The notes under the pieces are model-generated. The model saw only the letters and a list, made by a program, of their open reading frames with translations, was not told the origin of the DNA and made no database searches. From Candidatus Woesearchaeota archaeon (GTDB lineage Archaea > Nanobdellota > Nanobdellia > Woesearchaeales > UBA10216), in the NCBI GenBank assembly GCA_016185705.1, contig JACPMZ010000010.1, positions 64,913-128,912 on the forward strand: a stretch of 64,000 nt of DNA. Direction: 5' to 3'. The first letter of the stretch is position 1; each line of letters begins with the position of its first letter. The position numbers and the translations under genes are program-made. Below, piece after piece: positions 8,826 through 30,057 of the stretch.

Positions 8826-10697
8826 TCATTGCGCTGCCTCATCCAGTTTTTTGCCGAAAGGGTAATAGGGAACAGCTCCCCCTTTAAAGAATTTTGTAAA
8901 AAATTCCACGTAATTAAGTCTGATGCTTTGCAGAAAGCCGCCGAGCAATCCAAGGGCTATGTTCAGTGCATGGCCGAATATTCCTATTGTTACTCCGGCT
9001 ACAGCCATAATTCCGCCTGCGTTGATGAAGTCTTCCATGAATGAGTTTACTACGACAGCAAGCCCTACTGAAGCAAGCCCTACTGCTGCGAGTCTGGTGT
9101 AGGATATGAGGTTGCTTATCAGTCCGGGTATTTCTATTATGCCTGTTATTGATTCGCCCATGTATATTAGTGCCGCAGAGATTATGGCTGCTGCTATGCT
9201 TGCATAAATCGGAAGCGCTATTTGCCCTGAAGCAGTAAGCCAGATGCCCAGTATGCTTATTTGAAGCAGCCACCAGCTGCCTTTTGCGAGGAGGGCTTTT
9301 CTTAATCCGTGCTCAAGTTCGTTCACGAAGCCAAGCAGCAGTCCAAGGTTGATGTGCAGCAGGCCTATGAATACTGAGAATGCGAGCATCTCCCTGACCT
9401 GGTGTATTCTGCTTAGCACGTGTGGTAGGTGGAACCCAAGCAGCTCTTCAAAGCCGAATATTTCTCCGAAAAGGAAGCCGAATATTACGGAGGATAGCGC
9501 TGCCGGCAGCATTATCTTGGCAATTGGCTTCATGCCCGGGTATTTTTTAGGCATATAAAATAATAATGCCAGTATTACTAAGCCATATCCTATGTCTCCG
9601 AGGATTATTCCAAAAAACAGCGGGAAAGTCAGGAACAAAAAAAGTGTTGGGTCGATTTCTGAATATTTTGGCAGCGCATACAGGTTCAGCAGGAATTCGT
9701 AGGGTTTTGACAGCTTTGCGTTGGCAAGTTTTACAGGAACGCTGTCATCATGCGAGGGTTTGCTGACTTCCATCTCAGCGTGGCCTTCGGTTATTTTTGC
9801 AATGGTTTCTGTCAATTTCCCTGTGTATTTTGTTGGCACCCACCCTGTGATTACAATTATGTTTTGCGATGCCGCAAACCTCAGCGGAGCTTCTGCTTTT
9901 TCGAGCTCCGCCGACAGGAATTTTTCTGACAGTATCAGGAAGTCGTGCCACTTGTTTCCAAGCGATTCTATGGCCTTTTTCGCTTCCCGCAGTGACTTTT
10001 CAGATTTCTCAAGCTCTGCAGCAAGTTTGCGGATTTGCTCAGCAGGCTCTCCTTTCAGTCCTGTTATGTGCGATAAGTCCATTTCTGAGAAATTGTGTTT
10101 GGCGAGCAATTCTTCTGCCCTCGCTTCATAGGGCCTCGCGACAAACAATGCCATAGTTTTTTCTGACTGGCGCAGCTCAAATTCGTCTGTTATCTGCTGC
10201 ATCCCCTTGGCAAGGGTTTGCGGCGCTTCGACGTCGCCTGCAAATACTGCCAGTGATTTGTAGGGGGAGCAGGCGTCCAGCGGCAGTCTTAGCGCTTCAA
10301 TTTTTTCCAGCAGGGAAATTGCCCGGGCGTTGCCGGATATTGCGTTCTCTGTCTGCCTTATTTTCTCAAGTTGCGTGTTTGTTTGCTCCTGAAGTTTTTT
10401 TACTGTTGAAGCTAAGTGCGCAAAATTCTTTACTCCTATTGCTCTGAATCCGTTCCTCAAGGCAACATCTCCCTCAAGGTTGAGGTTTGATATTATTGCG
10501 CGCACAGAAATCAGGGTTTCTGATATTGCAGAGGCGTTTGGCAGCGGATTGCCTATGTCCATTTCATCCTTCAGGTGGTTGAGGATGTGTATGGCCTTGA
10601 GGTTGTATAGCTCCTTTACGATTTTGCTTTGATAGCTCTTCGGAGAAATTATGACTGCTTTGCTCATGCGCTCTGATTTAAGCATGTTACTCACCAA
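8826..10697 (-). CDS. atpI: A/V-type ATP synthase subunit I
   Basis: 623 aa; soluble N-domain plus multi-TM C-domain (PTLFLFLTFPLFFGIILGDIGYGL, ISYTRLAAVGLASVGLA). Confidence 0.95.
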   Translation of the reverse strand: MVSNMLKSERMSKAVIISPKSYQSKIVKELYNLKAIHILNHLKDEMDIGNPLPNASAISETLISVRAIISNLNLEGDVALRNGFRAIGVKNFAHLASTVKKLQEQTNTQLEKIRQTENAISGNARAISLLEKIEALRLPLDACSPYKSLAVFAGDVEAPQTLAKGMQQITDEFELRQSEKTMALFVARPYEARAEELLAKHNFSEMDLSHITGLKGEPAEQIRKLAAELEKSEKSLREAKKAIESLGNKWHDFLILSEKFLSAELEKAEAPLRFAASQNIIVITGWVPTKYTGKLTETIAKITEGHAEMEVSKPSHDDSVPVKLANAKLSKPYEFLLNLYALPKYSEIDPTLFLFLTFPLFFGIILGDIGYGLVILALLFYMPKKYPGMKPIAKIMLPAALSSVIFGFLFGEIFGFEELLGFHLPHVLSRIHQVREMLAFSVFIGLLHINLGLLLGFVNELEHGLRKALLAKGSWWLLQISILGIWLTASGQIALPIYASIAAAIISAALIYMGESITGIIEIPGLISNLISYTRLAAVGLASVGLAVVVNSFMEDFINAGGIMAVAGVTIGIFGHALNIALGLLGGFLQSIRLNYVEFFTKFFKGGAVPYYPFGKKLDEAAQ

Positions 10698-26027: not shown

Positions 26028-26165
26028 CATTCAGGATGGGGAAAATAAAGCGCTCGCTGGGTATCATTGGAAACTTTGCATAATAATTTTGAGGTGGAGT
26101 ATTAAGCGATGTGCAAAAATCTTTATAGCAAACTATTAAAAATGCTTGCTGCTTATCCTGCTTCT

Positions 26166-27185
26166 ATGAAACTCCTCAAAAAGGACTTGAAGCATGGCAG
26201 GCTTGTTGTCGCTGTGCAGAATCTTGATGACCTGTGGCACCTCTCGCAGGTTATTGAGCCAGGTGATTTGGTCAGCTCCAGGACTACGCGCAAGGTTAAG
26301 GTTACTGAGAAGGAGAAGGACAAGAAAACAGTTTTTCTGGAGCTTGCTGCTGAGGCCGTTGAATTCAAGGACCAGGCGCTGCGCGTTAACGGGAAAACCA
26401 CTGAGGAAAAGGAGGATATTCCTAAGGGCGCCTACCACACTATTTCCTTGGAAATTGGCAGTACAGCCGGAATAGCCAAAGACAGCTGGCCAAAGTATCA
26501 GCTGAAGTGCATTGACATGGCTGCCAGAAAACAGTCCAGGACCCTGATTCTTGTTCTCGACAGGGAAGAGGCAGTTTTTGCGTTGCTTAAAAGCAAGGGA
26601 TACGAAATACTGTCGCAGATTAAGGGAAAGGTTGCGAAGAAAGGCGTTGATTCGGTTACTGCAAATTTTTACAGGGATTTGACCACTAAACTCAGCGATT
26701 ACTTTAAGCGTTTCAGGACTGATTCAATTGTTGTTGCAAGCCCTGCTTTCTGGAAAGAAGATTTTATGAAAGAGCTTATTGACGAATCATTAAAAAAGCG
26801 GATTGTGCTTGCCACCTGCAGCAGCGTTTCCAGAAACGCGATTGAGGAGCTTCTTAAGCGTCCTGAGCTTGCCGCAGTTCTTAAGCAGCAGCGCGCAGCA
26901 GAGGAAAGCAGGTATGTTGAGCAGTTGATGGTTGAAATAGGCAAAGACGGTTTGGCAGCTTACGGAAAAAAGGAGATTGGCAATGCCGTAGCTGCTGGCA
27001 ATGTAAAAGTTTTGCTTATAACTGACGTGTTCATTTACAGGAACAGAAAAGATGCTGAGGAGCTTATGAAAATGGCTGAAGGCGTTAAAGCTGAAGTTGT
27101 TATTATTAACTCAGAGAATGAGGCAGGCGGGAAACTTGACTCGCTCGGCGGGGTAGCTGCTTTAACCAGGTATAAAGCATATTAG
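26166..27185 (+). CDS. pelA: mRNA surveillance protein Pelota
   Basis: MKLLKKDLKHGRLVVAVQNLDDLWHLSQVIEPGDLVSSRTTRKVK; full Pelota/eRF1-like layout. Confidence 0.95.
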   Translation: MKLLKKDLKHGRLVVAVQNLDDLWHLSQVIEPGDLVSSRTTRKVKVTEKEKDKKTVFLELAAEAVEFKDQALRVNGKTTEEKEDIPKGAYHTISLEIGSTAGIAKDSWPKYQLKCIDMAARKQSRTLILVLDREEAVFALLKSKGYEILSQIKGKVAKKGVDSVTANFYRDLTTKLSDYFKRFRTDSIVVASPAFWKEDFMKELIDESLKKRIVLATCSSVSRNAIEELLKRPELAAVLKQQRAAEESRYVEQLMVEIGKDGLAAYGKKEIGNAVAAGNVKVLLITDVFIYRNRKDAEELMKMAEGVKAEVVIINSENEAGGKLDSLGGVAALTRYKAY

Positions 27186-27604: not shown

Positions 27605-27868
27605 ATGGACTTGCTTGAGTACGTTGCGTTGCAGATGAAGCGCGGTAAGAGCCCGGCGCAGATTAGGCAGCTTCTTATTCAGAACGGCTATCCGGTTTAT
27701 GAAGTGGAGAATGCTTTGGCTGTTGCAGAGACAGATGAAAAAGCCGGGAAATCAGGGCATAAATTTTCTTTTAAGTTAAATGCTCCCGGCTACCTGCTCA
27801 TATTGGGCGTTTCGGTTGTTCTTATGATTACAGGGATTGCTACCCTGGTTATGTATTTTATTGATTAG
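27605..27868 (+). CDS. Small single-TM protein with UBA-like N-terminus
   Basis: MDLLEYVALQMKRGKSPAQIRQLLIQNGYPVYEVENAL plus C-terminal TM. Confidence 0.6.
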   Translation: MDLLEYVALQMKRGKSPAQIRQLLIQNGYPVYEVENALAVAETDEKAGKSGHKFSFKLNAPGYLLILGVSVVLMITGIATLVMYFID

Positions 27869-28683
27869 CTCTTCAGAATGTCTGACGCTGGCCGCATTGA
27901 CTTCCAGTGGTTGTCAAACATGTTCTCCAGTGCAGAGGCGAAGAACGGCGTGTTTACCCATATGCCTACGTCATAGGTTGGATGCACGTCTTTGTCGTTC
28001 AGCACCATGAACATAAGCTCTTTTCCGTCCACTATGCAGTATCTTGCCTTCATGTCAGAATGTCTGATATCTGCAATGCTTGCCACATCAGCCAGGGCGT
28101 CTTTGGCTTCCCTGGTTATTGGAGCTGCGATTCGTATTTTAACGCCGCGCTTCTTCGCTTTTTCCATTGCCGGCTTCAGTCCTTCTATTTTCCTCAGCAG
28201 CCCTTGTGATGTTGTTGCTATTGTTACTGATTTTTGCGCGCCTTTAATCATTAAGTCCAGATGGTTGTACAGATTGTGCCTCCCTTTAAGGCTGCCTGAC
28301 AAGTCTGTTGGCTCTACAAGCTCCAGCCCCTGTGAATGAAGGTTTTTCAGCTCGCCAATTATTTCTGTGTTTCTGATGTCTTCCAGCCGTTTTATTTTGC
28401 GCTCTGCCTCTCCTCTCATGTGCTTCTTAACGCGCTCAACAACTTCTGCTGGCTGCACAGCCACATATTTTATGGGCTTTCCAAGCTTCATCAGCAGAAA
28501 TCCTTTCTTTTCCAGGCTTTCCAGCACATCGTAGCTTCTTGAACGGGGAACGTTTGCAATGTCGCTCAGCTCTCCTGCTGTTGCTACGCCGCGGGAAAGC
28601 AACGCAGTCCATATCTTGACTTCATACAAATTCAAAGAAAAATATGTCCTTAATTTGCTCAGAAACTCTTCTTTTACTATCAT
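27865..28683 (-). CDS. TrmB-family transcriptional regulator
   Basis: LNLYEVKIWTALLSRGVATAGELSDIANVPRSRSYDVLESLEKKGFL wHTH plus PLD-like C-domain. Confidence 0.88.
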   Translation of the reverse strand: MIVKEEFLSKLRTYFSLNLYEVKIWTALLSRGVATAGELSDIANVPRSRSYDVLESLEKKGFLLMKLGKPIKYVAVQPAEVVERVKKHMRGEAERKIKRLEDIRNTEIIGELKNLHSQGLELVEPTDLSGSLKGRHNLYNHLDLMIKGAQKSVTIATTSQGLLRKIEGLKPAMEKAKKRGVKIRIAAPITREAKDALADVASIADIRHSDMKARYCIVDGKELMFMVLNDKDVHPTYDVGIWVNTPFFASALENMFDNHWKSMRPASDILKS

Positions 28684-28860
28684 TTTGCATCCCACCCCTT
28701 TTTTACTAAACTGCAATTAAATTAACTACCAAACGATACTAATATTTAAAGTTTATCATTGCACAGTTGTTATGTTGTGTTGCACTTTAGGGGCGTTACA
28801 TTAATAAAGAAACAAAGGTATAGGCATAACTTTATTAATAACGTCAGACTGCCATGTATC

Positions 28861-28905
28861 ATGGCTAAACATGCAGACTTTTTCGGATTCGCATTCTTTA
28901 ATTAG
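28861..28905 (+). CDS. Candidate Phe-rich leader peptide MAKHADFFGFAFFN*
   Basis: atg gct aaa cat gca gac ttt ttc gga ttc gca ttc ttt aat tag; 5 Phe of 14 residues, upstream of PDT/ACT gene; TATA-like ctttattaataa about 30 nt upstream. Confidence 0.5.
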   Translation: MAKHADFFGFAFFN

Positions 28906-29026
28906 TTTCATCTCCAAACTAAGCCCTTGACGTTCCCGGTCTGAAAAACCGTTGTTTTGGGATAAAGTTGGAGTTCTACAATGTTTTTTCACTAAGTCGG
29001 CAGGACTATAAGCTGCGGAGGACAAT

Positions 29027-29911
29027 ATGACAAGTTTAAGAATAGCTGATTTGGGGCCAAATACCTACAGCAGGTCTGCTGCCAAGGTGTTGACTCCGGA
29101 TGTTGAGCGTGTATGGGTGGTGGAGCAGGGCAGTGCAGGCATAGAGCAGGTGGTTGAGTATCTGCTTATGGGCGATGCTGATGTAGCAGTAGTCCCTGTA
29201 AGAACCCACCACTACGATATTCCTGAAACGCTGGGCTCAGTGCATGAAGCCATAACTAGGATGGAGGATAACGGCAGGCAGCTGCATATAGTAGGAGAGT
29301 ACAGAATGCCGGTTGATTACTATCTTGGTGTCAAACCGGGCACTGCTGTGGGGGAAGTTGAGGTTCTTGCCAGCAAGGATGAGCCGTTAAGAGCAGCCAG
29401 AAAGGAATTAAAGGCGATGCTTGGCAATGTAGAGTATGTGCGAACTCCTACAACTTCTGATGCTGCCATGATGGTGGCAGACAGCAAGGAGTACAGCATG
29501 GCAGCGCTGTGCAACGAGGAGGCCATCCAAGCATACGGCTTAGAAAAGCTTTTAGAGCAGCCAATCAGAAAGACTACAAGCTTTATCGCTTTAAGCCGTG
29601 CTCAGTCAGCAGGCAGGCAGGACGAGACTGCGCTCTTGGTTAGGTGTTACGAGGACAGCCCGGGGCAGCTTTATGGCATTTTGGGTGCTGTAATGCCGCA
29701 CAATATGAGTGCGTTGCTTCAAATGAGCAATATGGCTGACAGACATGGCACAGCAAGTAACGTGTATGTAATCAGGATAGAGGCAGACCTTGAAAGCGCC
29801 ATGTCGGCAGTCGGAAGAATCCGGGAAGAATTGGCGGCCAAAGAAAATGCTCGTGGCGTGGTGAATGGCTCAAGAGTGGATGTGCTCGGCAGCTATCCTG
29901 TCTATAAGTAA
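29027..29911 (+). CDS. Divergent prephenate dehydratase-like protein with ACT domain
   Basis: IADLGPNTYSRSAAKVL, KTTSFIALSR in the TRF region, ACT-like DSPGQLYGILGAVMPHNMSALLQMSNM. Confidence 0.75.
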   Translation: MTSLRIADLGPNTYSRSAAKVLTPDVERVWVVEQGSAGIEQVVEYLLMGDADVAVVPVRTHHYDIPETLGSVHEAITRMEDNGRQLHIVGEYRMPVDYYLGVKPGTAVGEVEVLASKDEPLRAARKELKAMLGNVEYVRTPTTSDAAMMVADSKEYSMAALCNEEAIQAYGLEKLLEQPIRKTTSFIALSRAQSAGRQDETALLVRCYEDSPGQLYGILGAVMPHNMSALLQMSNMADRHGTASNVYVIRIEADLESAMSAVGRIREELAAKENARGVVNGSRVDVLGSYPVYK

Positions 29912-29985: not shown

Positions 29986-30057
29986 CTCGCGGCGCGCTCA
30001 AACTGAAATCGTAGCCGCTCAAAAACCTTTAAATATACCGCTGGGGCTGTAGTAAGC

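Follow-up and report, generated by a model that had tools for sequence, protein, structure and literature searches.

A candidate phenylalanine-sensing leader peptide with a conserved RNA arm in Woesearchaeota

A short, phenylalanine-rich leader ORF in a Woesearchaeota archaeon belongs to a cassette, made up of the leader, a conserved RNA arm and a gene behind them, that we find in at least 24 of the 352 genomes of its order, spread over 11 families. We consider it likely that this cassette is a cis-acting leader-peptide switch that senses phenylalanine by translation and turns genes on when charged tRNA-Phe is scarce. We favor this reading because of the conservation of Phe codons amid varying flanks, the covariation of the arm, the placement of the promoter, the Phe depletion of the genes behind the leader, and the presence of DAHP synthase in four genomes. 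A preliminary description of this DNA had already read the ORF as a Phe-sensing leader peptide, and comparison among genomes supports that reading. Sensing of Phe by a ribosome on the leader appears well supported, and we infer the direction of the switch (on at Phe scarcity) from gene content and Phe depletion.

Results

Promoter, leader and neighboring genes

The window, by which we mean the whole stretch of 64,000 nucleotides analyzed here, carries in order a TrmB-like regulator gene on the minus strand, the leader, a prephenate dehydratase-like (PDT-like) gene, pheS and pheT (Table 1). The preliminary description had reported an ORF with five Phe in 14 codons, a TATA-like element about 30 nt before it and a possible leaderless start. 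The translation is exact, all five Phe codons can be placed, and the TATA-like octamer lies where it was described. At most of the 24 loci the best TATA match falls between about -28 and -32 relative to the leader ATG, and from the position of its TATA box the window transcript likely starts at or near the leader ATG, i.e. it would be leaderless. The same description placed a Phe-pathway-like gene about 120 nt downstream, next to pheST. Starting 121 nt past the leader stop, the PDT-like gene does match Pfam PDT (E 4.8e-22), but the catalytic and regulatory motifs are absent. The link to pheST likewise stands in part: pheS and pheT follow the PDT-like gene, but pheS has its own TATA box, from which pheST appears to have its own promoter and so need not be under the leader, and members outside the window's family were found without pheST.

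Table 1. Positions of the leader, its RNA arm and surrounding features in the window.
Feature	Position	Strand	Remarks
Pelota (ribosome-rescue factor) gene	26109-27182	+	TIGR00111 match above cut-off
TrmB-like regulator gene	27865-28695	-	upstream flank of leader
TATA-like octamer TTTATTAA	28831-28838	+	first base 30 nt 5' of leader ATG
Leader ORF MAKHADFFGFAFFN, then stop	28861-28905	+	Phe codons at 28879, 28882, 28888, 28894, 28897
P1	28913-28918/28967-28972	+	arm spans 28913-28972
Internal loop CUAA/UAAA	28919-28922/28963-28966	+	window version of consensus AUAA/GAAA
P2	28923-28926/28959-28962	+	
P3	28938-28940/28948-28950	+	loop CUGAAAA at 28941-28947
UUCU directly 3' of P1	28974-28977	+	pyrimidine-rich stretch present in most members
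Shine-Dalgarno GGAGG of PDT-like gene	29017-29021	+	adjoins local hairpin GGCAG/CUGC common to G004
PDT-like gene, first gene behind leader	29027-29911	+	294 aa, 1 Phe; without catalytic motifs
pheS TATA box TTTAAATATA	30028-30037		

Several other features surround the leader. An inverted repeat with arms 20 nt apart, ATTAATAAAG (28800-28809) and CTTTATTAAT (28830-28839), includes the leader TATA box in its right arm and may serve as an operator or represent two divergent TATA boxes. In most of the family (L069-L088), pheST has as its neighbor a regulator of the TrmB family that is closest to TrmBL2, and the unusual conservation of this regulator (72-87% identity) suggests that it controls pheST or itself. 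Most named relatives reached through the TrmB protein carry the label Woesearchaeota, among them every close one except one. Many family members have the pelota gene close to TrmB and pheST whether or not the leader is there, so that its presence does not imply a link to ribosome stalling.

Relatives of the cassette

The PDT-like gene has no close homolog in the genome-contig collection, and among 59 relatives the best reached only about 28% identity; we therefore used the synteny of TrmB and pheS to reach relatives. Seven of the 19 genomes of the window's family have a short Phe-rich ORF between these two genes: MAKHADFFGFAFFN in the window, and MKGKIAFFGFEFSFC, MNKAVAAKSEKSAGSFSFFFFGFAFN, MTAQIAIGFSFFFA, MTATSMFAFAFSFA, MQTANAAERGNKQGSFGFFFEFFFAFN and MKAGTANFGFAFSFN in the others. 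A gene is present behind the leader at all seven loci, but it differs from genome to genome. In G014 (L082, about 9889-9936) the leader MKAGTANFGFAFSFN is retained with its stop, no arm was found, and the ORF after the leader looks truncated; this locus is possibly a decaying copy. Loss of the ORF or its Phe codons in close relatives had been put forward as grounds for doubting the leader. Both of the window's same-genus genomes do lack the ORF, with TrmB directly adjoining pheS, but there the whole cassette (leader, arm and PDT-like gene) is gone, and more distant members of the family retain all of it.

A covariance model built from the arm only, with the leader left out, was run over the 352 genomes of the window's order (Woesearchaeota) and rebuilt in two rounds, after which order, class and phylum were searched. 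All members lie within the order, and their number is a lower bound, as E-values are rough and the strict filters of large searches drop weak matches. True loci in other families can be told apart by a Phe-rich ORF, present at each of them 30-41 nt ahead of the hairpin. We accepted a match in G106 at E = 0.27, where the leader is present and a PDT-like gene lies downstream; within the order, G333 gave a match at E < 0.01 without a leader. Matches from the class and phylum outside the order (e.g. G381, G425, G437, G475, G503, G550 and G582) have no such leader in place and were taken as chance.

Conservation of the leader peptide

A leader ORF with at least three Phe in its last ten codons is present at 24 of 24 arm loci, and one with at least four at 21 of 24, as against 0.86% and 0.28% of random positions in related DNA, where the ORF had to reach the same Phe count with its stop 20-45 nt upstream and where rates were drawn from loci of related genomes, not from one whole genome. 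Judged by these counts, the Phe-rich leader ORF is not a product of chance. Phe makes up 45% of the last ten codons across the 24 leaders, concentrated in the last nine, and UUU accounts for 76 of the 108 Phe codons within these ten positions. Conservation of the Phe codons in relatives had been proposed as a check on the leader; beyond the Phe-rich ORF at every arm locus, close pairs retain most of their Phe codons while neighboring codons differ, with several synonymous changes. One such pair, G172/G173, preserves a common MRANSFFGF despite four synonymous changes. The N-terminal halves of the leaders are unrelated between families, and leader lengths differ.

A covarying RNA arm

RNAalifold, run unaided on six sequences after the leader stop, proposed an arm consisting of P1 (6 bp), a 4x4 internal loop, P2 (4 bp), P3 (3 bp) and a 7-nt loop. 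Double changes occur at 9 of 13 pairs in the six-sequence alignment and at 12 of 13 in the 24-sequence alignment, in which 93.6% of cells are paired, 94 cells hold double changes, and the covariation score is 0.825; shuffling lowers it to 0.319, and sliding to 0.173 or less. Of the alignments, A6-A8 are biased in favor of the model because they had been fitted to it, which A3 had not. Little or no variation is seen in the AA of the internal loop, which is of the UAA/GAN type (consensus AUAA/GAAA), or in the GAAA of the tip, where GAA is found in 24 of 24. Positions outside both loops mostly vary freely, and the arm has no junction or evident pocket. The window (G000) has mismatches at P1 pair six (A-G) and P2 pair one (G-A), and thermodynamic folding of the window leader alone gave no excess stability (z 0.16 and 0.09). 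Rfam covariance models, including the one for the bacterial Phe leader, gave no match up to E = 1 in 28600-29200.

Spacing between leader and arm

Across the 24 loci, about 16 nt separate the last Phe codon from the start of P1 (15-18 nt, with one exception at 12; SD 1.37 nt), which lies 9-15 nt from the first base of the leader stop codon (SD 2.30 nt) and 24-42 nt beyond the first Phe codon. In 20,000 permutations the spacing to the last Phe codon never came out as tight as that observed, and leaders ending in Phe have a longer stop-to-arm spacing than leaders with Phe in second-last place (p = 0.0002), with the caveat that the loci are related (11 families), so permutation and rank tests overstate independence. 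By these measures it is the last Phe codon, rather than the stop codon, that fixes the distance to P1. The leading edge of the bacterial ribosome lies about 12 nt beyond the A-site codon, a value that may differ in these archaea. With an edge of this reach, a ribosome on any Phe codon would leave P1 free, and one on the stop codon would overlap or abut P1.

Genes behind the leader

DAHP synthase is the first gene at four of the 24 loci (G169, G173, G176 and G181, all above the TIGR00034 cut-off). It is followed by a PEP-synthase-like gene, recognized by Pfam PPDK_N in G173 and by sequence resemblance in the other three; PEP is a substrate of DAHP synthase. A PDT-like gene comes first at seven loci (G000, G052, G106, G237, G238, G289, and as a fragment in G004 that has no Pfam match and was assigned by alignment only), and the first genes at the other 13 fall into several small groups without assigned function. 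The PDT-like protein of the window lacks the N-x-T-R-F, ENS and ESRP motifs (with T-T-S-F instead), which true PDTs of the order retain, and this makes an enzyme role for it doubtful. The T-R-F motif is absent from all seven PDT-like proteins, the Arg being replaced by Asp, Ile, Val or Ser; going by their motifs, the leader-linked PDT-like proteins are probably not prephenate dehydratases.

Phe depletion played no part in the discovery of the loci. First genes contain 1.85% Phe as against 4.84% in neighboring ORFs of at least 200 aa (ratio 0.38, p = 2.8e-11), the absolute background value being approximate since these ORFs were called mechanically, and at 23 of 24 loci the first gene is below its own neighbors. 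Phe stands out as the most strongly depleted residue, and Tyr is raised 1.39-fold. Leader-linked PDT-like proteins contain 0.3-3.6% Phe, compared with 3.7-5.9% in 15 true PDTs (p = 0.0002). Proteins needed in starvation for an amino acid are known to hold little of that residue, a pattern called low cognate bias (PMC4209129). The Phe depletion of the first genes is what low cognate bias predicts, and resembles that of biosynthetic enzymes made in starvation and poor in the amino acid concerned; unlike in those enzymes, the depletion here marks the first gene behind the leader, including genes without assigned function (PMC4209129).

Three further observations concern the DNA behind the leader. 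One protein family of 168-189 aa, low in Phe and without a Pfam match, is found there in three families (L109, L107, L114 and L115; G013, G015, G171 and G261), as is a small protein of roughly 105 aa whose N terminus carries a hydrophobic segment (L116, L131 and L175; G058, G064 and G140). In G012, G013, G015 and G018 (L080, L081, L083 and L086), a strong GGGAG is followed by a TTG-started ORF of five or six codons, whose stop overlaps or abuts the next Shine-Dalgarno; this is possibly a second micro-ORF or a remnant of an older start.

Candidate output structures

No bacterial-type terminator or antiterminator was found at the 24 loci, and oligo-T runs (at least 5 T) between the arm and the gene start occur at only 5 of 24, so that oligo-U termination is not conserved. 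An anti-Shine-Dalgarno role for the P1 3' strand or UUCU was not supported, as cognate pairs do no better than shuffled pairs; single loci do look persuasive for such pairing (G137, with CCUCCG/CGGAGG, and G187). Computed Shine-Dalgarno accessibility showed no consistent change when P1 was blocked. Pairing of the arm loop with the leader Phe codons gave no cognate signal, as expected with both sides invariant.

Discussion

How might the leader and the arm work together? Transcription would start at or next to the leader ATG, such that the Phe-rich ORF is translated first. When charged tRNA-Phe is scarce, the ribosome would wait on one of the leader Phe codons, the arm would be just clear of it and could fold, and the downstream gene would be expressed. 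When Phe is plentiful, the ribosome would reach the stop codon, where it would overlap or abut the 5' strand of P1, and expression of the downstream gene would be low. The downstream protein may have evolved a low need for Phe, as fits a product made during Phe starvation. The ribosome model alone does not explain the invariant GAAA loop.

That loop raises the question of whether PheRS binds the P3 hairpin as a mimic of the tRNA-Phe anticodon arm, with the leader peptide secondary. There is precedent in the E. coli thrS operator, a tRNA anticodon-arm mimic bound by its synthetase. In these genomes the anticodon loop of tRNA-Phe reads CUGAAGC or CUGAAGA and so has CUGAA in common with the arm loop CUGAAAA, whose GAA does not vary, and in the window's family the element adjoins pheST, i.e. 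a hairpin with an anticodon-like loop lies upstream of a synthetase operon as in thrS. However, loop position 37 is A in all 24 compared with G in the tRNAs found, position 33 is C in three (G015, G176 and G187) compared with U33, and the closing stems are unlike those of tRNA. No copy of the element was found at synthetase genes beyond the window's family, and mimicry leaves unexplained the universal Phe-rich leaders, their last-Phe-codon spacing and the loci found without pheST. We regard such autoregulation as unlikely. Another use for conserved loops would be a riboswitch-like receptor for Phe or another small molecule, with the leader ORF merely a second input. The conserved internal loop and invariant GAAA would suit a receptor, but the variability of the rest of the arm, the missing junction or pocket, the lack of an Rfam match and the unexplained spacing to the last Phe codon make this very unlikely.

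It is also conceivable that the leader encodes a functional micropeptide acting in trans, given a short coding frame conserved through synonymous changes in close pairs. Yet it is mainly the Phe positions that are retained, the N-terminal half and the length differ between families, and the placement of the arm, 16 nt beyond the last Phe codon, suggests that the leader works in cis; we give this idea scant credence. Chance production of the ORF by AT-rich intergenic DNA, in which TTT readily yields Phe codons and of which the two same-genus genomes without the ORF might seem a sign, can be dismissed, since a leader-blind model found the Phe-rich ORF at every locus against a rate below one percent at random positions and those two genomes lack the entire cassette, not Phe codons alone.

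Returning to a Phe-sensing leader, the closest known systems are bacterial. Leader-peptide attenuation is a textbook bacterial mechanism, and the preliminary description saw in the window the layout of bacterial pheA/pheS attenuators. The Phe-rich leader, the downstream arm and DAHP synthase in four genomes agree with that comparison, but a terminator or antiterminator does not appear. Like the bacterial pheA/pheST leaders, which in Rfam are presumably those of Phe_leader (RF01859), the element has a short Phe-rich ORF at the transcript start, then a folded RNA, then aromatic-metabolism genes, with the RNA placed so that ribosome position would decide its folding. Unlike them, it is archaeal and probably leaderless, and its single conserved arm combines a GAAA tip with an internal loop of the form AUAA/GAAA. 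The arm is placed much as the switching segment is in bacterial attenuators. We do not claim membership in the bacterial attenuator class, because the alternative structure that defines it was looked for and not found.

In E. coli trp and his attenuation, a stall at cognate codons permits one structure and a ribosome at the stop codon disfavors it (PMC1183508). The stall versus stop logic that we propose is like this, whereas nothing conserved at our loci corresponds to the terminator formed by segments III and IV. As in ermC-type translational attenuation (mentioned in PMC2965389), a leader ORF precedes a gene whose Shine-Dalgarno is strong, an arrangement that would fit translational control; unlike in the ermC type, sensing appears to be amino-acid specific and masking of the Shine-Dalgarno is not supported. 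A 2010 paper that extended leader-peptide attenuation to Firmicutes described it as undemonstrated beyond Proteobacteria and Actinobacteria until then (PMC2965389). The preliminary description called the mechanism not well established in archaea, in keeping with our search of 5.4 million open-access papers, a set that takes in few subscription journals and preprints, where we found no report of archaeal leader-peptide attenuation.

We speculate, at somewhat less than even confidence, that the cassette represents an archaeal attenuator class that evolved apart from the bacterial ones. In this view the arm, with its invariant GAAA tip, would supply one half neither of a terminator nor of a masked ribosome-binding site but would itself be the active form; either the stalled ribosome would read it, or a factor acting in trans would, for instance PheRS or a termination factor. 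The arm would control nearly Phe-free starvation proteins, some without assigned function.

Conserved leader-peptide control in archaea would mean that gene expression there is subject to amino-acid-specific feedback from ribosome position, and an archaeal Phe leader would offer a ready system for testing such feedback. Among the genes behind the leader, those for Phe-poor proteins without assigned function are ones that these small-genome archaea appear to need once phenylalanine runs out.
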